This document shows positions 14,844-30,060 of a DNA stretch of 64,000 nt, one piece after another (position 1 is the first letter of the stretch; each line of letters starts with the position of its first letter). Under the pieces are notes generated by a model. The model saw only the letters and a list, made by a program, of their open reading frames with translations, ran no database searches and was not told the DNA's origin. Source of the DNA: Clostridiales bacterium (GTDB lineage: Bacteria; Bacillota; Clostridia; Lachnospirales; Lachnospiraceae); NCBI GenBank assembly GCA_021204025.1, contig JAJQAC010000072.1, forward strand, positions 1 through 64,000, given 5' to 3'. The position numbers and the translations under genes were made by a program.

Positions 14844-15815
14844 TCAGTTGATGCGTGCACCACACTCATCGCAGAATTGTTCGTCTTCATAAAATTTTTT
14901 CCCACATTGAGGGCAATATCTGGAAACAACAGGCGGTGCCCCCTGATAGCCTATATCTAAATGCGGCAATCTGCTTCCGCATTCATCACAGAAAGCCTCT
15001 CCATTCGTAAATTTTTTGCCGCAAACCGGACAAAATACCGCATTAAAGTCACTTCCACCGGTTTCGTGCCACGAATTTTTAATATCCGTTTCGACATATT
15101 CCATATCACACTCTTTTACAATCAGCTCCTGCTTTCCGACACGGAGAACGTCGCCGACGTGTAGGGCAACAGGTTCTTCAATCATAACATCATTAACAAA
15201 AGTATGATTATGTGAGTTCAGATCTTCGACATAACAGACTTTGTCTTCTTTAAACAGGCGGCAATGTCTGCGAGAAACGGATTTGTCTCCTTTCAAAATA
15301 ATATCACTGTTTTCAGCGCTTCGTCCGAGGGTCATGACAGTCGTCAGTGGTATCCGATATGTGTCTGCTGGATTTTCCTTTGCTTCCAGGATAATCAGTC
15401 CCGCAGGTTCCGGTTCAATACGGAATGTATCGTCCAACGAGGAAACATCCGTTGTCACATCATCGTCATCCTCCATCTCCAACGGTTTCGGCGAAATATA
15501 ACCAACAGTTTTATCATCATGAAGCTCCGGAGGAGTGAATACCTCATTTTTATTGCCGGGACGTGATCCGGGCGGAATCACTTCATCTCTTGGTGGGATG
15601 TACTCCGGAGGATCCATTTCGTACGGTCTCTGGGGTCCCGTCTTTCTACCATGAAAAATAGAAAGAAATGAATCCCAGAAAGATCGTTTGGCTTTCCTTC
15701 CGTTCCTTACAGATGTATCTGCCATCATGCCGACGTTACTACCAATCGGCTTGCCGCAGTTTTCACAAAAACTGGCGCCATCAGCTATGCGGCTGCCGCA
15801 GTTCTCACAAAACAT
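14844..15815 (-). CDS. FHA-domain protein with three zinc ribbons
   Basis: The N-terminus has CENCGSRIADGASFCENCG, followed by a Pro-rich linker. Residues about 160-235 form an FHA domain with the expected binding motifs: LGRSAENSDI, SVSRRHCRL and DLNSHNHTFVN. The usual Gly in NGTF is His here. Two further zinc ribbons close the protein: CPVCGKKFTNGEAFCDECG and CPQCGKKFYEDEQFCDECG. No membrane helix is seen, so it should be cytosolic. FHA domains bind phosphothreonine, and the PASTA kinase lies two genes upstream, so a kinase-reader pair is likely. The start at 15815 follows GGAGGGAA. Length is 323 residues. Confidence 0.85.
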   Translation of the reverse strand: MFCENCGSRIADGASFCENCGKPIGSNVGMMADTSVRNGRKAKRSFWDSFLSIFHGRKTGPQRPYEMDPPEYIPPRDEVIPPGSRPGNKNEVFTPPELHDDKTVGYISPKPLEMEDDDDVTTDVSSLDDTFRIEPEPAGLIILEAKENPADTYRIPLTTVMTLGRSAENSDIILKGDKSVSRRHCRLFKEDKVCYVEDLNSHNHTFVNDVMIEEPVALHVGDVLRVGKQELIVKECDMEYVETDIKNSWHETGGSDFNAVFCPVCGKKFTNGEAFCDECGSRLPHLDIGYQGAPPVVSRYCPQCGKKFYEDEQFCDECGARIN

Positions 15816-15886
15816 GTTGTTCCCTCCTGCTTTTTTTTAAAATTTGTTCCGGTTGTTTATGAAATCGCTATTTTCGATCTTTCTCA

Positions 15887-16807
15887 TCAATCTTCATCAT
15901 CGTCTTCATCATAATCATAAGTAATTTCATATTCGTAATAATAGTAGTACTCATCATCATCGTCGTTATCATGACTATCATCATAGGTGCCAGCCTTTAT
16001 ATCATTGATAAACGAATCGATCTCTTCCTGTGATACGCCAAGCGCAGAAAGAGATTTCTGCACTTTCGCTTCCCATTTTTCCAGGCGGCCCAGCCACTGT
16101 TTCGTCGATTTTGCGGTATAAACATTATTCTCGTAGTATTCGTACAGACTATCCTTCGTCTCAGTAATTTTCTCATTCAAAAGCGACTGCTGATCAGCGA
16201 TATTGTCGTCCTGATATCCTCCGGCATAAAGAATCTGCCAAGAATTGTCCAACTTCTGTGTATTAGAAGTTTTATACATGATCGTGCCGTCGTCTTTGTG
16301 CCAATAAGCAATACCTGTCTCAGCCTCATCCTCGTTTTCAAGCAGATTTGTGATCAGGGAACCGTCCTCATACGCTTCATAAAGATAGGGGGAGCCATCT
16401 ACCGCGAAAGTACCGGTCTGCATGATGCCGGAACTATCCATGTAATATTTCTTTGCCCCTTTTTTCAGCCACCCGGTGTGCATAACTCCACTGTCGGGAT
16501 CCATATAATACCAGTCCCCATCAGATTCCAGCCACCCTGTCGCCATAGCTCCTGTCTCTTCATTGAAGTAATACCAGGAACCATTGATGGATTGCCAGCC
16601 ATAAAGAAGATAACCGGAGGCATCAAAAGCATACGAAATTCCATCGATTTCAGCGATCTGGTCTCTGGCATATTCACTGCTGTCATATTGATACCAGGTT
16701 CCACCCTCATCGCTTCCCCAGCCAGCATAGGCAGTAAATCCGATTACCGTAGATATTATGACGGTTGCTGCTGCTCTTGTGATTTCTTTGTGCATCTTTT
16801 TTTTCAT
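15887..16807 (-). CDS. Secreted wall-binding-repeat protein with acidic tail
   Basis: ATG 16807 (MKKKMHKEITRAAATVI) is chosen over 16852 because AAAGGAGA precedes it and a signal peptide follows. The mature part has tandem repeats of the choline-binding type (LLYGWQSINGSWYYFNEETG, ATGWLESDGDWYYMDPDSG, HTGWLKKGAKKYYMDSSG), which in related proteins bind wall teichoic acids or glycans. A helical region follows. The last 30 residues are almost all Asp, Glu and Tyr. No catalytic domain is recognised. It sits between the kinase and the FHA gene. Length is 306 residues. Confidence 0.75.
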   Translation of the reverse strand: MKKKMHKEITRAAATVIISTVIGFTAYAGWGSDEGGTWYQYDSSEYARDQIAEIDGISYAFDASGYLLYGWQSINGSWYYFNEETGAMATGWLESDGDWYYMDPDSGVMHTGWLKKGAKKYYMDSSGIMQTGTFAVDGSPYLYEAYEDGSLITNLLENEDEAETGIAYWHKDDGTIMYKTSNTQKLDNSWQILYAGGYQDDNIADQQSLLNEKITETKDSLYEYYENNVYTAKSTKQWLGRLEKWEAKVQKSLSALGVSQEEIDSFINDIKAGTYDDSHDNDDDDEYYYYYEYEITYDYDEDDDED

Positions 16808-16853
16808 TTTTGGATTCTCCTTTCCATTCCTTTTATATGTTGTTTGAATCAAA

Positions 16854-19085
16854 TTACCAGATATTAGTTTTGTCTGATTTCACAGTTTCCGATGGCATCG
16901 TCGCGGCAGGCGTGGTTTCCACCGGTTGTGTTTGGGCAGAAGTTGTCTCCGCCTGCGTTGCCTCCTGCGCCAACGTTTCTGGTGGTGCGGCTGATGCTGC
17001 CTCGGTAGCAGAACGTGTGGAGCTACTGCCGGATTTATGGCTACTGCCAGATTTCTGACTTGTCACAGGAGCTATGGTTGTTTCCTGAGGAGCAGCGCCC
17101 AGGCTAACCGTCAGGATAATCGTCTCTCCTTCGCTCAAAATCCCCGGTTCGACACTCTGCCCGAGGACCGTGCCCGGTGCGGATTCCTCGTCATATCGCG
17201 TGATGCTGTCTCCTGCGATCAATCCAAGACCCTCTAACTGTTTTCTGGCCTCTTCTTCTGACAGTCCGGTGAGATCAGCAAGCTGTACATCCCTGGGTCC
17301 CGCGCTGACAACAACGGTTATCCTGTCACCGGAATTACCGGCAGAATCTGCCCTTGGTTTCTGTGATAAGATCTGTCCGACTCTGGTTCCCGCCTGATAT
17401 TCTACACCAGATTTTTCCATATATAATTCATTCTCCTTCAGAAGCTCCCATGCCTCGTCCTGAGAAAGTCCTGATAAATCTGGAATTGTAACAGAATGAC
17501 TTTCCAAAACTGTTTCATCGCCGGCTATGGTCAGCGTAATGATCGTGTCCTGGCTGACTTCCGCTCCGACAGAAGGCGATACTGCTGTTACGGTGCCTTT
17601 CGGTGCCCATGCTTCTTCTGCTGTTTCAATGTTGACTGCAGTAAGATCCAGACGGTTCATTTCAGCTACAGCAGCCTCCATCGTCATATAAAGGACATCC
17701 GGAATCTGCGCCTGTCCGTTTCCTGAACTGACAATTACCTGGATTGTGGATCCCTCTTCAATCGGATCCCCTCGCATCAGACTGTTTCCGTTTTCATCTA
17801 TCTGACGGAGAACATATCCTTTCAGAGTCGTATCGGATGGTTCCGTACCCGCAATATAGAAAACAAGTCCCATTTCTTCTACACGATTTTTCGCTTCATC
17901 CTGACTGAGATTCAGCAGATTCGGAACTCGCACAAAACCTTCCTGAATTTTTTCAGAAGCAACTGTGCCCGGATGTTCTGGCTTCGCAGTGATAATGCCT
18001 GAGACAAGTACGACAACACCTGCAATAATGGCAATCCCACCGATACCAAATAAAAGTTTCAGCCACAGCGGCCATTTCCAGGAAGCCTGCTCTGTGTCCT
18101 TTTCCTCAGGGTGTGTTCGTTCCACGTGAGAGGAACAGAGATTTTTCTCAAACTCTTCCGCTGATTTCGTGCGGTCTTCAATTCTTACCTGGAGTGCGTT
18201 CAACAAAGCATTTTCCAGATTTTTGTCAATGACTACGCCCAGATCAGATGGTTCCTCTAATGTATCCTTAATTCGCCGATCCCACGAATCCGGTGGCTTT
18301 CTTCCGGTAATCATTTTATAAAAAGTTGCCGCAAGCGCATAAATATCCGTCCACGGTCCCTGTCTCCCGCCGCTCTGGTACTGCTCAACGGGAGCATATC
18401 CGGCCTTTAAAATCACGGTAAGAGATTTGCTGTTGGTTGTTGTTACCTGCCTGGAGGCACCAAAATCAAGCAACTTTACCTCACCGGTTTTCAGCAGATA
18501 AATATTGTCCGGAGCAATATCCCGGTGGATAATATGTTTTGCATGAACCTCTTTTAAAGTTCTGGTCACAGCCAGAATAATAGGGAATGCTTCATCTACA
18601 GTCATCACGCCGGTTCTTTTCAGGCGATCCTTTAACGTCTCTCCCTCCAGCAATTCCATGACGATGTAGGCGGTATTATTTGCCTGAAAAAAATCATAAA
18701 TCTGTGTGATGCCGGAAATCTGGCGAAATTCCGCCAGAAGTTTCGCTTCATCCAGAGATTTATGCATCCCGGCTTCAAACTGTTCCTGTTTTTCACCTTT
18801 ATAGACAGATACTCTGGATTGGTTTGGAATTCTTGTCGCAAATTCCATGGGAAGATATTCTTTGATTGCGTTTTTTTTCTGCAATGTCAGATCATATGCG
18901 ATATAGGTAATACCAAATCCACCGGAGCCCAGCACTCTCCCAACCCGATAACGTCCGTGAATCACGGTTCCTGGTTTTAAATAGTGGGATTCCGCAGGTG
19001 GCGTTGTCTGATCGTAGCCACATATCGGACAGAAACGCCCCTGTCCATCATATTCTTCCATACAACCCAGACACAAAGTCTTCAT
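16854..19085 (-). CDS. Zinc-ribbon Ser/Thr protein kinase with four PASTA repeats
   Basis: Cys5, Cys8, Cys19 and Cys22 form a zinc ribbon before the kinase domain, an unusual addition. The kinase has the Gly-rich loop (LGSGGFGITYIAYD), the ATP lysine (NAIKEYLP), the catalytic loop HRDIAPDN and the metal motif DFGASR. One helix (LLFGIGGIAIIAGVVVLVSG) places four PASTA repeats outside (near VPNLLNLSQDEAK, IPDVLYMTMEAAV, IPDLSGLSQDEAW and LADLTGLSEEEAR). A Ser/Thr/Ala-rich tail ends the protein. PASTA kinases sense muropeptides or lipid II and phosphorylate division and wall proteins. No PP2C phosphatase gene lies next to it, unlike the usual prkC locus, so this may be an accessory kinase. Length is 743 residues. 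Confidence 0.92.
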   Translation of the reverse strand: MKTLCLGCMEEYDGQGRFCPICGYDQTTPPAESHYLKPGTVIHGRYRVGRVLGSGGFGITYIAYDLTLQKKNAIKEYLPMEFATRIPNQSRVSVYKGEKQEQFEAGMHKSLDEAKLLAEFRQISGITQIYDFFQANNTAYIVMELLEGETLKDRLKRTGVMTVDEAFPIILAVTRTLKEVHAKHIIHRDIAPDNIYLLKTGEVKLLDFGASRQVTTTNSKSLTVILKAGYAPVEQYQSGGRQGPWTDIYALAATFYKMITGRKPPDSWDRRIKDTLEEPSDLGVVIDKNLENALLNALQVRIEDRTKSAEEFEKNLCSSHVERTHPEEKDTEQASWKWPLWLKLLFGIGGIAIIAGVVVLVSGIITAKPEHPGTVASEKIQEGFVRVPNLLNLSQDEAKNRVEEMGLVFYIAGTEPSDTTLKGYVLRQIDENGNSLMRGDPIEEGSTIQVIVSSGNGQAQIPDVLYMTMEAAVAEMNRLDLTAVNIETAEEAWAPKGTVTAVSPSVGAEVSQDTIITLTIAGDETVLESHSVTIPDLSGLSQDEAWELLKENELYMEKSGVEYQAGTRVGQILSQKPRADSAGNSGDRITVVVSAGPRDVQLADLTGLSEEEARKQLEGLGLIAGDSITRYDEESAPGTVLGQSVEPGILSEGETIILTVSLGAAPQETTIAPVTSQKSGSSHKSGSSSTRSATEAASAAPPETLAQEATQAETTSAQTQPVETTPAATMPSETVKSDKTNIW

Positions 19086-19362: not shown

Positions 19363-20271
19363 TTATTTCTTCTTCCGTTTCCGCATCGCCCATATGATCC
19401 GGACCAAAACATCCGACAACAACCAGATCACGACGAGGACGCCAACTCCGAGAGCAGCCCATTTTGTCCAATTTGGGATCTCCTTCGGCTCTGTCTCCGT
19501 TTCTTCCGGAAGCGCTATCGTCTCTTCGGTTTCCTCTTCTGGATAAATCCGACTCCCACGTACCAACAGTCGGTGGCTGTTAATGCCATAGGGTGTGCAG
19601 GTCATCAACGTACAGTAGTCCTTTCCTTGCTCAATATAGAGATTTTCGATTTCCGTCGGAAGAACCGTAAGGATCTGATCAACCTGATAGGTCAGAACCC
19701 TGTTTAAAATCGTAATGGTAAAGACATCGCCCTCAGTCAGGCGGTCTAAGTGAGTAAAGAGCAGAGCGCTCGGCAACCCCGTATGTGCGGAAATGACACT
19801 ATGGGTACTCTCTCCTCCAACCGGCAGGCTCGTACCCTGCATATGTCCTGCACCAACCTGCAAAACAGACGCATCCGTCCCGTGATAAATCGGAAGCTGC
19901 ACATCAATGACGTCGATGGTAACATACCCCATAATGCCCGCCCCGCCGACATTTAAGAGATCCTCATACCCTTCCGGCTGCTCCGGTCTCGTAATGGCGT
20001 TGGCAGAACCCATATCCGCAAGAGCTCGATTATACCTGTCAGCCGCATCAAAATAAGCGTCATAATCTTTTTCATCCATTTGCACCACAGCAGCATCATA
20101 AGCCGCGACAGCTCTGGTCTGGACTCTGGCATTCCACCATTCGCTAACGGATGGATATAGCAGAACGCCAACCCCTACCATGAACACCACCACCAGAAGG
20201 ATCGTTCCGATGATTCCTTTTCTACGCTTTGCCGGAGTCTTTGCTTTGTTCCATCTGCTTTCTGTCTCCAT
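19363..20271 (-). CDS. Class C (pilus-type) sortase
   Basis: The protein has an N-terminal helix (GIIGTILLVVVFMVGVGVLLY), the catalytic His in ISAHTGLPSALLF, the catalytic Cys in TLMTCTPYGINSHRLLVRG with Arg downstream, and a C-terminal helix (WAALGVGVLVVIWLLSDVLV). Class C sortases join pilin subunits through LPXTG motifs. The pilin next door ends in LPSTG. The start is set at ATG 20271 (METESRWNK) after GGGAAGAGG; the open frame from GTG 20343 begins inside a hairpin without a ribosome site. Length is 302 residues. Confidence 0.9.
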   Translation of the reverse strand: METESRWNKAKTPAKRRKGIIGTILLVVVFMVGVGVLLYPSVSEWWNARVQTRAVAAYDAAVVQMDEKDYDAYFDAADRYNRALADMGSANAITRPEQPEGYEDLLNVGGAGIMGYVTIDVIDVQLPIYHGTDASVLQVGAGHMQGTSLPVGGESTHSVISAHTGLPSALLFTHLDRLTEGDVFTITILNRVLTYQVDQILTVLPTEIENLYIEQGKDYCTLMTCTPYGINSHRLLVRGSRIYPEEETEETIALPEETETEPKEIPNWTKWAALGVGVLVVIWLLSDVLVRIIWAMRKRKKK

Positions 20272-20311
20272 AAGCCTCTTCCCTGCCTTTTTTGCTTTTC
20301 TGTCAGCTCTT

Positions 20312-20383
20312 AGCTGCCCATTTCTGTTTTTTGAAATGGGCACCGAACAGCCGGCAATCGGAGCCGATTCGGCTCCGATTGCC
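20312..20383 (-). other. Two hairpins between pilin and sortase
   Basis: A 15-bp perfect palindrome occupies 20353-20367 and 20369-20383 with one base between the arms. A second hairpin at 20315-20341 pairs GCCCATTT with AAATGGGC. Neither is followed by a T-run on the minus strand. They could be stabilising 3' ends of the pilin mRNA, or partial terminators that keep sortase expression below pilin expression. Confidence 0.6.
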
Positions 20384-20393
20384 AGAAGGCAGA

Positions 20394-22127
20394 TTACTCG
20401 CTCTTTCTCATACGCACACGGGTGACCAGCAGAACCACCGCGCCAAGTGTCAATACGCTTCCGATGATATGGAAGATCGCAGTACCCATACCGCCGGTGC
20501 TCGGCAGTTCAGTACCTGTTGAGTTCTGTACATCAGCGGTCAGAGAACCTTCACCGGTAGCCGTACTAAAGCTGATCGCTGCACCGGTTTGTAAATCAGT
20601 CCCTGTAAGCGTAGTCAGATAAGCACTAATGCTGCTAAGGCTATCTCCAGCAACCGGGGTCACACCACTGGACGGTTCATGGTCAGCGCTGATTCTAAAG
20701 TACATATCGTCAATCTTGTTATAGCCATCCGGAACCGTAGACTCAACCAGAATGTAATCACCATCGTCCAGTCCGGTCCAGGTAAATACGTTATTGCCAC
20801 TTCCCGTTGCTGTTGCCGTCCCTTTACAGATATAATAATCTATCGATGAACTATATTGAGTGGTATCTTGATCAACTTCTTCCAATTCTCCATCTGTCCC
20901 TACAATATAATAGGTTTCACTTGAATCAAAAGCAGTAATAGCTACCTTTTTGTACAGGGTAAATCCTGCACCTGCCAAAGCCGCACTGTTTGTATCTACC
21001 TTATTGATAATCACCTGATATGTATACACTACAACAGTATCCCATGCTGTGTATGTTTTGTTCGTGTCGTTATATGCATTGTTGGAATATTCCAGACGAG
21101 CAGTATTCGGGTTACCGTTGTTTCCCATATCTGCATTATCATTCAGCGTAGCTGAGAAGTTTACGGTCACTGTAGTAGTGCTATTCACTGGGATGACACT
21201 GCCGCTTTCTGTGCAAGTTTTCAGATCATTAATGATAACTTCAAATGTGCAGCCATCTGTTGTTGATGTATTTACAGTATAGCAGCTGCTGTCTACTGTG
21301 TAGGTTGTCGTAACATTGCTTTCCGTGGTTGTGATCGTTACGGTTAAAGTACTATTATCTGTCGGATAATCAAACGTCAGCCCGTCACTCATAACATCAT
21401 GGAACGCGTAATAATAAGTAGTATAAGAACTGATATAAGAATCCACTCTACCGGTCAACTGGAAGGGAACGCTATCGCCGATATCATAGTCAGCGGTATC
21501 CTGCCAGTCTGTCGTGCTATTAGCCTCAGAGTCATTGACATCCTGCACCTTTTTGGTCATGGTAACTTCATCATTCTTGTTGGTTACGTTAATACTCGAC
21601 TTGTCAGCCGTATCCAACATAACCAGCGAATAGGTACCGGAAGCTCCGGCGGCTGTCTCCGCGATCAGATAATAGCCATAGGAAACAGTGAATACACCGG
21701 ATGTAGCCGTGTAGTAATCTATATCAGCCGTTAATGTTAAATTATTACTTGTATCTGTAATATACGCATAAACCGCATCAGCAAAGGTTCTTGCCTCGTC
21801 ATCCGTAAGAGCTGCAATTGCCGCAACGATTTCGGCGTTTGTTGAACTGTTTGTTATTGTAGTGTCCGGATCAACCGCCTTAAGCCCGGCAACTATCGCG
21901 TCTATATACGCACTGTTGACCGTGTAAGCGTACTTATCGGGAGTTCCATCATTATCACTGTCGCTTACGGTAACCGTCATCAGCTGATACGCCGTATAAG
22001 ATGATGTAGTATCGCTCATGGTGATGATTGTCGTCTCTCCTGCCGCAAATGCCATAGCACTCACGGAGAACGCCATCACTGCCGCCAGTATGATACTGAC
22101 CAATCTTCTCAATCCTTTTTGTTTCAT
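20394..22127 (-). CDS. LPXTG major pilin subunit with isopeptide-type domains
   Basis: ATG 22127 (MKQKGLRRLV) has GGAGG five bases upstream. A signal peptide (SIILAAVMAFSVSAMAFA) is followed by Thr/Asp/Tyr-rich pilin domains. VTNKNDEVTMTKKVQD resembles the lysine strand of Gram-positive pilin domains, and the E-box (DYILVESTVPDGYNK) marks a domain with a Lys-Asn isopeptide bond. The C-terminus is a sorting signal: ELPSTGGMG, helix, MRKSE. It is the shaft subunit expected to be polymerised by the sortase downstream. No separate tip or base pilin is in the window, so this may be a one-subunit pilus. Length is 577 residues. Confidence 0.9.
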   Translation of the reverse strand: MKQKGLRRLVSIILAAVMAFSVSAMAFAAGETTIITMSDTTSSYTAYQLMTVTVSDSDNDGTPDKYAYTVNSAYIDAIVAGLKAVDPDTTITNSSTNAEIVAAIAALTDDEARTFADAVYAYITDTSNNLTLTADIDYYTATSGVFTVSYGYYLIAETAAGASGTYSLVMLDTADKSSINVTNKNDEVTMTKKVQDVNDSEANSTTDWQDTADYDIGDSVPFQLTGRVDSYISSYTTYYYAFHDVMSDGLTFDYPTDNSTLTVTITTTESNVTTTYTVDSSCYTVNTSTTDGCTFEVIINDLKTCTESGSVIPVNSTTTVTVNFSATLNDNADMGNNGNPNTARLEYSNNAYNDTNKTYTAWDTVVVYTYQVIINKVDTNSAALAGAGFTLYKKVAITAFDSSETYYIVGTDGELEEVDQDTTQYSSSIDYYICKGTATATGSGNNVFTWTGLDDGDYILVESTVPDGYNKIDDMYFRISADHEPSSGVTPVAGDSLSSISAYLTTLTGTDLQTGAAISFSTATGEGSLTADVQNSTGTELPSTGGMGTAIFHIIGSVLTLGAVVLLVTRVRMRKSE

Positions 22128-22392
22128 GTTGACCTCCATGTTTTCATTTCCTTGTTGCTCTTCCCCTTCAGATCCATACCCGGATCCAACGGAGGATTTC
22201 CCTCTTGTTCCCCATTATTCAGTTTTCCTTTGTTGTAAAACCTGCCGCCTGAGACGGCTCCTGGAACGGTTTTTTAATATCAGTCTCCCGTCACCCCCTC
22301 ACCGTCTCAGTGTTATTTATATCGCATAAACCGTATCCCCGGCATCCGCCGGTCGGTTTTCGATACCAACTGGTTAAAAAATGCTCCACTCT
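22128..22392 (-). other. Leader between the XRE gene and the pilin gene
   Basis: These 265 bases contain no gene. On the minus strand GAGACGG near 22305 can pair with CCGTCTC near 22250, enclosing GAGGGGGTGACGGGAG. I looked for a c-di-GMP riboswitch and did not recognise one. No strong promoter is visible, which fits co-transcription with the XRE gene. Confidence 0.3.
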
Positions 22393-22746
22393 TTACTCTC
22401 CCATATAATGTTTCAGATCCACCAGCATCCCTAAGAGCCCGTCCATCCCGCCGTCGTTCACTTTCCGGCGCAGTTCCATGATCTCTCTTTCCGACTCCGT
22501 GTCCTCCATCGGAACCGATAATCTCGTTGCCGGGCGTGCTCCGTCCGTGCCGGTCTCCCGGTGTGCGAGGATGTAGTCTGTCGAAACCCCAAAGTAATCC
22601 GCCAGTGAGAGCAGGTTGTCGATCTCGATTCGGTTGCGGTCCCGCTCCATCCGGCTGATGATCTGCTGGGATACGCCGATGATCTCCCCCAGTTCTGCCT
22701 GCGACAGTTTCCGCTCTTTCCTGAGTTTTCTGATATTACTTGTCAT
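22393..22746 (-). CDS. XRE-family transcriptional regulator
   Basis: Residues 1-60 form a Cro/CI-type helix-turn-helix (IRKLRKERKLSQAELGEIIG, VSQQIISRMERDRNRIEI). The rest is short, charged and without a recognised ligand domain. The start follows AGGAGA. It is the first gene after the invertible segment and lies upstream of the pilin gene in the same direction, so it probably controls the pilus genes or the switch. Length is 117 residues. Confidence 0.85.
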   Translation of the reverse strand: MTSNIRKLRKERKLSQAELGEIIGVSQQIISRMERDRNRIEIDNLLSLADYFGVSTDYILAHRETGTDGARPATRLSVPMEDTESEREIMELRRKVNDGGMDGLLGMLVDLKHYMGE

Positions 22747-22830
22747 TCCGCATTCTCTCCTGTCCTCTTTCTTCGTTGTCCTGCTCTGCGTTTATTCCTA
22801 ACAAAGTCACTCATTTTTTGAACTAACCTA

Positions 22831-23146
22831 CAACATAATGTATGTTATGTGGTATAGAAGAGAGTCAAATCCGCATGATACCTGTCCTGTAGCAGGGATT
22901 TACTATTTTACAAAAAGCCCGAAAAGAATTATATGCATATCTATAATTCAAAATCAGGGCAAGCCAAACATTGCCGGACAGAGAAATTCTGCCTGGCTCT
23001 TTTGCGTGAATAAAAAAACAAAAAATGTTCTATTTTTAATTTCAAAGGGATTGTAATTTTACCAATTTTGATTTATAATAACCTAAATTTGAGTAGATTA
23101 TTTTGATTTAGATTAGGACGTTTACCACATAACATACATTATGTGG
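22831..23146. repeat. Invertible DNA segment with 22-bp inverted repeats
   Basis: Bases 22833-22854 and 23123-23144 are perfect inverted copies of each other (22 of 22). Each copy is itself a dyad around a 6-base asymmetric centre: TGTATG on the left and CATACA on the right. The right copy has 8-base arms, CCACATAA and TTATGTGG. Two arms around a short asymmetric spacer is how tyrosine-recombinase crossover sites are built, and the opposite spacer orientation predicts inversion of the 268 bases between them. A tyrosine recombinase gene starts 14 bases to the right. The segment carries a promoter on the plus strand and no convincing gene. Confidence 0.85.
23051..23079 (+). promoter_or_regulatory. 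Promoter inside the invertible segment
   Basis: TTGTAA at 23051 and TATAAT at 23074 are 17 bases apart, a near-consensus sigma-A promoter reading rightward. In this orientation its transcript meets the right recombination site after about 50 bases and points against the recombinase gene. After inversion the -10 would lie near 22898-22903 on the minus strand and read into the XRE and pilin genes, with a leader of about 145 bases. Confidence 0.75.
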
Positions 23147-23160
23147 TTTTTCTTTTTTCT
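23125..23160 (+). terminator. Right recombination site doubling as a terminator
   Basis: CCACATAA and TTATGTGG pair across six bases and are followed directly by TTTTTCTTTTTTCT. This is a short intrinsic terminator for the rightward promoter at 23051. The left site has no T-run on its outer side. Confidence 0.55.
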
Positions 23161-24011
23161 CAGGCGGCTGTTACCGCAACCAGATCCATCTCATCCAGGA
23201 TCTGCACCTGCTTTTTCCACCCGCTTCGCACATAAATGCGCGTCGTATTCATATTGGAATGCCCTAAGACATCCGCCAGATTTGCCAGATTCTTTTCCTG
23301 CTCGTAATAGATACAGGCAAACAAATGCCGGAAATTATGCGGAAAACCTTTGCTGCCGGCGATGTCCGCAATTTTACACAATTTCTGGATCTCATGATAC
23401 AGATTGCTGCGATCGACCGGCCTGCCGCCTCGCGTGACAAAAACACTTCGTTTTATGATCCCGTTTTCCCGGATATATTCTTTCAATAAAGCGATCAGCT
23501 TTTGCGGAAGGATAATCCGGCGGTTCTTGCCTTTCAGATGCACATCCGCGTACCCTGCTTTTACCGCTTCTACCGTAATAAAACGCAATTCACTCACGCG
23601 GATGCCGGTGGAACAGATCGTTTGCAGGATATGCCAGAGACGCATCTTTCCCGCGGCTTTCGCTACAGCAAGGAGCTTTTTATACTCTTCCCGGCTTAAT
23701 TCTCTGTCCTCTCTTCGGAAAAGCCCTTTCTGAGATTTGATCGTCTTTACCACGCAATCATACCAGCCGAAAAATTTTAAAAATCCATTCACGCCCGCGA
23801 GCATACTGTTGATGCTGGACGTCAGGTAGTTCCTTAATAAATATTCTTTATACCGGATCATCGTCTCCTTATCAATCGGTTTTTCTCCTGCGAAGTCACG
23901 AAAAACGCCCAGGTCATGCAGGTATTTCTGCACAGTCGCCACACTCTTTTCCTCTTTGATCAATGACTGCCTGTAATCCTCTATCATCTGTTCTGTAATC
24001 ACATGTTCCAT
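23160..24011 (-). CDS. Tyrosine recombinase, likely DNA invertase of the pilus switch
   Basis: The N-terminal half is a SAM-like core-binding domain (TVQKYLHDLGVFRDFAG). The C-terminal half has the full catalytic set: Arg in CSTGIRVSELRF, Lys in LKGKNRRI, His and Arg in FPHNFRHLFA, His in VLGHSNMNTT and Tyr in TRIYVRSG. ATG 24011 is chosen because GGAGG lies 8 bases before it. At 283 residues it is a minimal XerC/D-type enzyme without extra domains, a common size for stand-alone invertases. No excisionase or phage gene lies nearby. Its position beside the inverted repeats makes it the best candidate for flipping them. Confidence 0.9.
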   Translation of the reverse strand: MEHVITEQMIEDYRQSLIKEEKSVATVQKYLHDLGVFRDFAGEKPIDKETMIRYKEYLLRNYLTSSINSMLAGVNGFLKFFGWYDCVVKTIKSQKGLFRREDRELSREEYKKLLAVAKAAGKMRLWHILQTICSTGIRVSELRFITVEAVKAGYADVHLKGKNRRIILPQKLIALLKEYIRENGIIKRSVFVTRGGRPVDRSNLYHEIQKLCKIADIAGSKGFPHNFRHLFACIYYEQEKNLANLADVLGHSNMNTTRIYVRSGWKKQVQILDEMDLVAVTAA

Positions 24012-24129: not shown

Positions 24130-24149
24130 ATCATAACGCAACAAACCCG

Positions 24150-24344
24150 TTATTGTAAAGAAAAACCGGCGCATAGCGTCGGCTCTCCTTGTTCCTGCAT
24201 CTGCTCAACCTCTCTTCCCTCCGCGCTTAGCACGTCGAATAAAAAACAGTTGGAAATTTTGTTCTTTCCCGTGAACCCTGTAGCATCATAAAGTCCGGTA
24301 ATCTTCGTTCTGAAAATGATGGAAAAACTGATCTCTGGGATATC
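24150..24344 (-). pseudogene. Coding-like remnant after the dehydrogenase stop
   Basis: Directly after the TAG of the dehydrogenase, and in the same frame, 64 codons stay open to a TAA. The product has a protein-like composition (ITGLYDATGFTGKNKISNCF, LFDVLSAEGREVEQMQEQ). There is no start codon or ribosome site. I do not recognise the family. It may be the 3' remnant of a lost gene, or unselected sequence. Confidence 0.3.
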
Positions 24345-29819: not shown

Positions 29820-30060
29820 TCAAAAATGTACGTTATGTATTTTACGTACGTTATGTTTATGATAAATTTCCTGATAATATTTTATGGATGTGGTCAATGA
29901 GATAATTTGGTTGCTGTGTGCCAGTGGCATCTGCACTCCGTTTCGGTCGGTCCTTAACATATGCCACTGGCACACAGGACCGTTTAGCAACGACCGAAGC
30001 GGAGCGTAGACTGGATGCAGCGTCAGCTGCAAAATTTCCGTATCCACCCGTGCGCATAAA
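29820..30060. repeat. Cluster of nested inverted repeats and palindromic unit
   Basis: Two TACGTTATGT copies lie near 29828 and 29846. Bases 29915-29930 and 29961-29976 are perfect 16-base inverted arms. Inside and outside them CTCCGTTTCGGTCG (29936-29949) pairs with CGACCGAAGCGGAG (29991-30004) except at one position. A hairpin GCAGC-GTCA-GCTGC (30017-30030) within GGAT...ATCC follows, ending in CCCGTGCGCATAAAA. The last unit recurs near 39960. No gene is present here. Confidence 0.6.

Follow-up and report, generated by a model that had tools for sequence, protein, structure and literature searches.

The stretch of DNA analysed here (the window, 64,000 nucleotides of contig C42 in a 91-contig, 3.04-Mb draft genome, G000) carries a tyrosine recombinase gene beside a short segment bounded by inverted repeats, with a pilus operon on the other side of this segment. 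The repeats are 22 bp long and perfect (22833-22854 and 23123-23144, 268 bases apart), as the original prediction had described them, and they stretch to 25 nt if one mismatch is allowed (22830-22854 and 23123-23147). Each is itself nearly palindromic, two 9-bp half-sites being placed around a 6-bp spacer (ACCACATAA-N6-TTATGTGGT), and the spacers of the left and right sites, TGTATG and CATACA, are reverse complements. The cargo-side recombination site (IR2, 22830..22853) reads ACAACATAA-TGTATG-TTATGTGGT with its spacer at 22839-22844 and the recombinase-side one (IR1, 23124..23147) reads ACCACATAA-CATACA-TTATGTGGT with its spacer at 23133-23138, neither being assigned to a strand. Judged by this layout the 22-bp repeats are recombination-type sites, and the segment that would be expected to invert, given these repeats and the oppositely oriented homologous segments of another genome (G008), is 22854..23123, likewise without strand. 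The repeats also enclose, again as predicted, a sigma-70-type promoter, TTGTAA-17-TATAAT (23051..23079, + strand), which faces the recombinase end and is kept in homologues; a promoter bounded by inverted repeats, the arrangement that marks a promoter inverton, is what the segment holds.

The recombinase gene (23160..24011, - strand, stop codon included) encodes 283 aa from an ATG starting at 24011, and its stop codon occupies 23160-23162. It had been placed directly to the right of the repeats with a gap of 14 bases; the adjacency stands, but the gap between the stop codon and the repeat end at 23144 is of 15 bases. A probable promoter of the gene, TTTACA-18-TATGAT (24130..24159, - strand), comes with a GCGTTATGATG block common to most of eight aligned upstream regions. 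The protein scores 86.7 bits against Pfam PF00589 (phage integrase, gathering score 27.1), and R138, K162, H225, R228, H251 and Y260, which we take to be catalytic-type residues, are kept in all 15 aligned relatives. By sequence its nearest solved structures are Xer-type. The NCBIfam cut-offs for XerC, XerD and archaeal XerA are missed (93.9 of 335, 92.1 of 329.6 and 120.9 of 220 respectively), as are those of the FimB/FimE-type DNA invertase models PRK09870 and PRK09871 (22.5 of 221 and 18.7 of 222). Relatives in plasmid and phage collections amount to 5 and 1 records, all below 60% identity.

To the left of the segment, and all on the - strand, lie the XRE, LPSTG pilin and sortase genes that had been foreseen. 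The XRE-type (HTH_3) regulator (22393..22746) is the first gene of the switched operon, and with it stand a major pilin with an LPSTG anchor and isopeptide-type pilin domains (20394..22139) and a class C (pilus) sortase (19363..20343). The pilin exceeds the cut-off of TIGR04226 (69.0 of 30) and the sortase that of NF033745 (268.5 of 160), while the score against the SpaH/EbpB model NF033902 stays below its own (78.9 of 95). An LPXTG major pilin with isopeptide domains is found here together with a class C sortase, which is the make-up of a sortase-assembled pilus operon. The gap that separates the sortase gene from the pilin gene contains a hairpin (20353-20383) with 15 perfectly paired bp and a loop of one base, a possible attenuator by which more pilin than sortase would be made. 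Beyond the sortase, on the same strand, 14844-19085 encodes a PASTA-domain Ser/Thr kinase, a choline-binding-repeat protein and an FHA/zinc-ribbon protein; at their place two sister cassettes of the same genome, on C49 and C77, have genes for a minor pilin and for a further sortase-like protein.

Relatives of the recombinase at E 1e-60 were found in 12 of 24 genus genomes and in 27 of 150 family-sample genomes, the window's genome being included in both, and a scan of named genomes confirmed 573 stretches, of which the best 80 were used. With identical copies removed there were 158 recombinase loci (78 named, 7 from the window's genome, 19 from the genus and 54 from the family), and 22 of them with less than 250 nt after the stop were set aside, leaving 136. 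An inverted-repeat pair with a score of at least 16 follows the recombinase stop in 113 of these 136 loci, which were chosen by likeness to the window's recombinase, are not independent and have recent duplicates among them; in 111 the pair starts between -60 and +110 of the stop. Given that no such pair occurred in 408 first-order Markov shuffles or in 106 stretches taken 1.2-1.9 kb downstream, its presence is not due to chance. A score of at least 14 was passed by 120 loci, which were used further, while 16 of the 136 had no such pair. The consensus of the sites is ACnACATAA-TNNNNA-TTATGTnGT, and the recombinase stop codon lies inside the site in 32 of the 120 loci. At L157 (Fournierella massiliensis An912) the repeat arms reach 134 nt and extend into the last (3') part of the recombinase gene, which looks as though this part had been duplicated, together with the site, onto the opposite flank.

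In order to avoid bias, sites were then sought by their half-sites alone in the 133 loci with at least 400 nt. Two sites were found in 111 loci, and their spacers, one being inverted, are identical at 6/6 bases in 108, at five bases in one and at two bases in two, these last being L203, where the sites are identical but direct, and L212, where the second site is poor. Spacers of different loci match in 74 of 12,210 comparisons. When the two arms of the 109 real pairs are compared, identity is 99-100% in the spacer and drops to 62-92% at the outer half-site bases. Furthermore, self-palindromic spacers number 0 of 118 against 6.3 expected by column shuffle (P 0.0014), as expected if the asymmetry of the spacer sets inversion rather than deletion. 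At L203, in the family member G172, two identical 24-bp sites stand beside the recombinase in direct orientation, for which deletion rather than inversion is predicted.

Promoter hexamers alone, in a single sequence, are at chance level (5 found against 4.4 expected), but the position and direction of the promoter are repeated among homologues much more often than in shuffles. With simple promoter scores, and a near-site promoter defined as lying 15-75 bp inside a site with a score of at least 10, 78 of 119 loci show one near IR1 facing the recombinase (OFF), 16 show one near IR2 facing the cargo (ON), 4 show both and 21 neither, compared with 4.0 OFF and 3.8 ON per set in Markov shuffles; L105 was left out of this count as its repeat is not a site. 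The commoner assembled state is OFF (78 against 16), and a looser orientation call over 120 loci gives 80 OFF, 16 ON and 24 unclear. In the window the promoter points away from the pilus operon, as originally read, which supports OFF as the assembled state of this switch for the operon. The expectation that inversion would place the promoter about 145 bases before the XRE start also holds up, the end of the -10 box coming to lie 152 nt from the XRE ATG with a leader of ~ 145 nt. A second, leftward motif, TTGGCT-16-TATAGA, had been thought to make the OFF state leaky; it is present, but the promoter scan does not list it and the homologous segments, when aligned, do not conserve it, and it was rejected as support for a leaky OFF.

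Aligned homologous inner segments lie the same way (plus) in 88 of 91 pairs and the opposite way (minus) in 3, a small count formed by L075/L076, L072/L074 and L096/L098. Both switches of the L075/L076 pair belong to G008, where they lie in opposite orientation and are 71% alike over 180 nt. All five homologous segments that were aligned within the window's own group are OFF, with no other orientation seen, and G172 shows one common direction for 12 of its 13 called switches, judged by their aligned segments. The ends of contigs are at best suggestive of mixed orientation: they fall within 250 nt after the recombinase stop in 8 of 78 cases and before the start in 1 of 78 (Fisher P 0.034). C17 ends 2 bp beyond its site, as expected from a mixed population. 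C25, C71 and C85, however, continue 31-38 bp further in, which the mixed-population model does not predict, and contig ends were rejected as proof.

The right site is followed by TTTTTCTTTTTTC, and IR1 with this outer T-tract (23124..23159, + strand) makes a 9-pair hairpin with a T-rich tail, which has a folding z of -5.03 and passes the terminator scan, while the left site has no T-tract and a folding z of -1.31. Among the 120 loci at least 6 T of ten are found outside IR1 in 66, outside IR2 in 3 and inside either site in 4 each, the asymmetry between the outer sides of IR1 and IR2 having a Wilcoxon P of 3e-12 for loci that are related and whose kinship is ignored. Since IR1 is so often followed by a T-tract it looks like a terminator of the OFF transcript, and the recombinase-side repeat likely doubles as one; with the T-tract fixed outside the segment at one site only, one end would say stop and the other go. 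A conserved hairpin beyond the promoter (22973..22997, + strand), drawn from the homologue alignment and weak in folding (z -0.71 for 22950-23015), is a possible insulator.

We regard the locus as a promoter-inversion (phase-variation) switch with a probability of about 0.9, a reading built on sequence comparison, and we infer that the window's own copy flips. The recombinase would bind the half-sites, exchange strands within the spacer and flip the segment. In the OFF state the promoter transcript would end at the IR1 terminator as an RNA of ~ 70 nt, and this terminator would spare the recombinase gene antisense transcription. In the ON state the promoter would stand ~ 145 nt before the XRE gene and read through IR2, which has no T-tract, into the XRE, pilin and sortase genes.

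Several other readings have to be weighed against this one. A copy that was once invertible and is now locked OFF, or flips too rarely to matter, would fit the common orientation of the five segments aligned with the window's and of the G172 set, and some loci are indeed decayed or odd (the direct sites of L203, the partner mismatch of L212, and C72); however, the sites, the spacer identity, the promoter and the recombinase reading frame of the window are all intact, and spacer identity would go first in a decaying site, so that a locked copy appears improbable. The recombinase-facing promoter might instead have a role of its own, for instance through a small or antisense RNA by which the recombinase is tuned, with pilus control secondary. 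The promoter is directed at the recombinase's 3' end in 78 of 119 loci, and a ~ 70-nt transcript is predicted up to the IR1 terminator, both of which would suit such a role. But 16 of 119 loci have a promoter that faces the cargo, and the transcript would be stopped by the T-tract after IR1 ahead of the recombinase gene; we consider this role very improbable. There is hardly any room for a third reading, which would make the recombinase a common integrase or a resolvase of Xer type and leave the repeats as mere terminators or remnants of an excised element: every NCBIfam Xer model is far below its cut-off, and matched, non-palindromic inverted spacers (108/111) with an enclosed promoter are unexpected for terminators or attachment sites, even though the solved relatives nearest by sequence are Xer-type and IR1 is terminator-like.

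The comparison goes beyond the original prediction in pointing to the window's switch as one of several in its genome, with a spacer unlike that of most sisters and a recombinase-side repeat that is likely a terminator. Besides the window's recombinase the genome encodes four that are 81-82% identical to it, two at 48-53% and two weak matches, the five close ones being 81-83% alike. The half-site pattern with a free spacer finds ten sites on the + strand (2 with the reversed-pattern control), namely site pairs on C42, C49 and C77 and single sites on C17, C25, C71 and C85. Those of C17 and C71 have one spacer in common and both are at contig ends; C71 carries a recombinase and C17 carries XRE, pilin and sortase genes, and the two are presumably halves of one cassette. 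This makes three complete pilus switches and a fourth split between contigs, and C42, C49, C77 and C17 each have an XRE, a pilin and a class C sortase. Among the sister cassettes the XREs are 84-90% alike, the pilins 39-47% and the sortases 66-78%. The site cores at six loci show five distinct spacers, C25 having that of C77. Elsewhere in the window, 29821-29856 contains two weak matches to the inner site pattern, each with 3 mismatches, which adjoin each other tail to head. Given that an XRE gene comes first in each pilus operon, cross-talk between the pili is suggested, for which UpxY/UpxZ in Bacteroides is a precedent; an inspection by eye of the promoter region and of the DNA upstream of the recombinase gene revealed no common palindrome as an XRE operator.

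A fifth XRE gene, ahead of a giant surface protein (L084, G000:C72, 5899-6444), has two poor sites and a promoter-like stretch facing the gene. Its spacers read TTTGCA against TTTTCA after inversion, and no site of score 12 or more was found in the G006 relative. C72 was rejected as a further switch, and looks like a decayed, locked one. Between G000 and G006 the single clearly syntenic switch pair is that of C85 and G006:C18, with an identical spacer; the other pilus cassettes show no synteny within the stretches compared.

Because the half-sites are the same, cross-action between sister switches is possible, and only the spacers would stop their sites from recombining with each other. One recombinase might then flip all switches in trans, in the manner of RecV, with the adjacent gene not dedicated to its neighbour. 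The likeness of the five close recombinases (81-83%), the half-sites they have in common and the presence of orphan C68 and C85-type copies speak for this, but each switch core, whether complete or half-assembled, comes with a recombinase copy of its own next to it, always on the same side, and we find trans action doubtful, though worth keeping in mind. Sister switches share half-sites and mostly differ in the spacer, and the spacer may therefore be an address that keeps each switch independent, a proposal that we put forward more guardedly than the inversion itself. Distinct spacers within a genome amount to 6/6 in G069, 11/13 in G172, 3/3 in G006 and 3/3 in G007. Against an address stands the repetition of some spacers (C25 and C77; 11 distinct of 13 in G172), and recent duplicates account for part of the pattern. 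Taken alone, the one-base spacer differences between similar inner segments (L072/L073, L207/L208) are no proof of selection, and the address idea stays conjectural. Tentatively, and at somewhat less than even odds, the genome may hold an address-coded set of at least four distinct sortase pili, each with its own invertible promoter and recombinase, with half-sites in common and mostly private spacers, flipping independently without scrambling the chromosome; the conserved XRE of the active pilus would regulate the others and the site would act as the OFF terminator. If true, one gut bacterium keeps related DNA switches together without cross-recombination, a natural counterpart of orthogonal lox sites, and phase variation is linked to sortase-built pili in gut Clostridia. 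Half-sites that bracket a free but matching spacer where a recombinase gene ends would moreover be a signature by which switches could be called from assemblies without reads.

Among the 94 loci with at least 2.5 kb beyond the second site, 5 have a pilin-like hit, 9 an LPXTG-like protein and 4 a homologue of the window's sortases; pilus cargo was rejected as a family rule. The Pfam families of the first cargo gene are mixed (signal peptidase, HTH, LRR, GGDEF/EAL, SLH and capsule) in tallies that cover 53 and 42 of 114 listed first-cargo proteins, some longer ones and fragments being omitted. Peptidase_S26 accounts for 14 of the 53 first cargo genes scanned in a mixed-locus set. G172 has 16 close recombinase relatives, 13 of them with called switches, and many of these switches have a first cargo gene about as long as a signal peptidase gene.

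In E. coli, fimS is an invertible promoter beside the tyrosine recombinase genes FimB/FimE and drives a pilus operon. The window resembles it in joining an invertible promoter, an adjacent tyrosine recombinase and a pilus operon, but fimS serves chaperone-usher pili whereas the window's are sortase-assembled, and the window's recombinase reaches 22.5 against a cut-off of 221 in the FimB/E-type model. The closest characterised relatives in working are, from the parts of the reports used here, the RecV switches of Clostridium difficile (cwpV, PMC2784873; flagellar, PMC5386303), where a short segment with ~ 21-bp inverted repeats is turned by a tyrosine recombinase. At cwpV, too, an intrinsic terminator beside the repeat was proposed to end the OFF transcript (PMC2784873). 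However, as described there, the cwpV segment is without a promoter, while in the window the promoter is inside and the terminator T-tract is fixed outside the segment. RecV is moreover described as remote from cwpV and as serving several switches with unlike repeats, and the window does not have this global arrangement, its recombinase being adjacent and the half-sites held in common. SZO08560 of Streptococcus zooepidemicus is, in the account consulted (PMC2654543), a Gram-positive surface protein with a promoter flanked by short inverted repeats and a recombinase nearby in a related strain; its repeats are of 10 bp and its cargo is a single surface protein instead of a pilus operon. Orthogonal Cre/lox spacers (PMC10850332, as far as consulted) are alike in that half-sites are in common and the spacer decides pairing, but those are engineered, while variation in the window's family is natural and its insulating role conjectural.

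Promoter invertons are already published, among them a group from Clostridia that is linked to a tyrosine recombinase (PMC11892184). In the main text of that study (Jin et al. 2025), hCom2 inverton group 139 and invertase group 35 are found in Clostridia in 32 of 33 cases with a tyrosine-type recombinase nearby, and reads are reported to show orientation shifts of group 139, Clostridium sp. D5 and Intestinimonas butyriciproducens being two examples. Since these are Clostridia invertons with a nearby tyrosine-type recombinase and read-based orientation shifts, the window's switch, likened by the main-text description, probably belongs to the same family. The terms 'sortase', 'pili' and 'palindrom' are absent from that main text, which raises termination solely as something that motifs downstream of genes might do. 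In the open-licence literature searched we did not find sortase pili under such switches in Clostridia, a spacer code, a multi-pilus set, or a built-in terminator in the form of a recombinase-side T-tract as a family rule.

Two further kinds of locus were observed. L013 (G000:C68, 2826-3671) and L070 (G006:C52) hold a recombinase 52-54% identical to the window's without an adjoining repeat pair, in a gene order conserved in both genomes; the switch of this recombinase may have been lost, or its target may be at another place. Finally, an IMG/VR contig filed as viral (L233, 1-1403) carries the whole recombinase-and-switch module near a serine recombinase gene, and its promoter faces away from the recombinase, that is, ON by eye.
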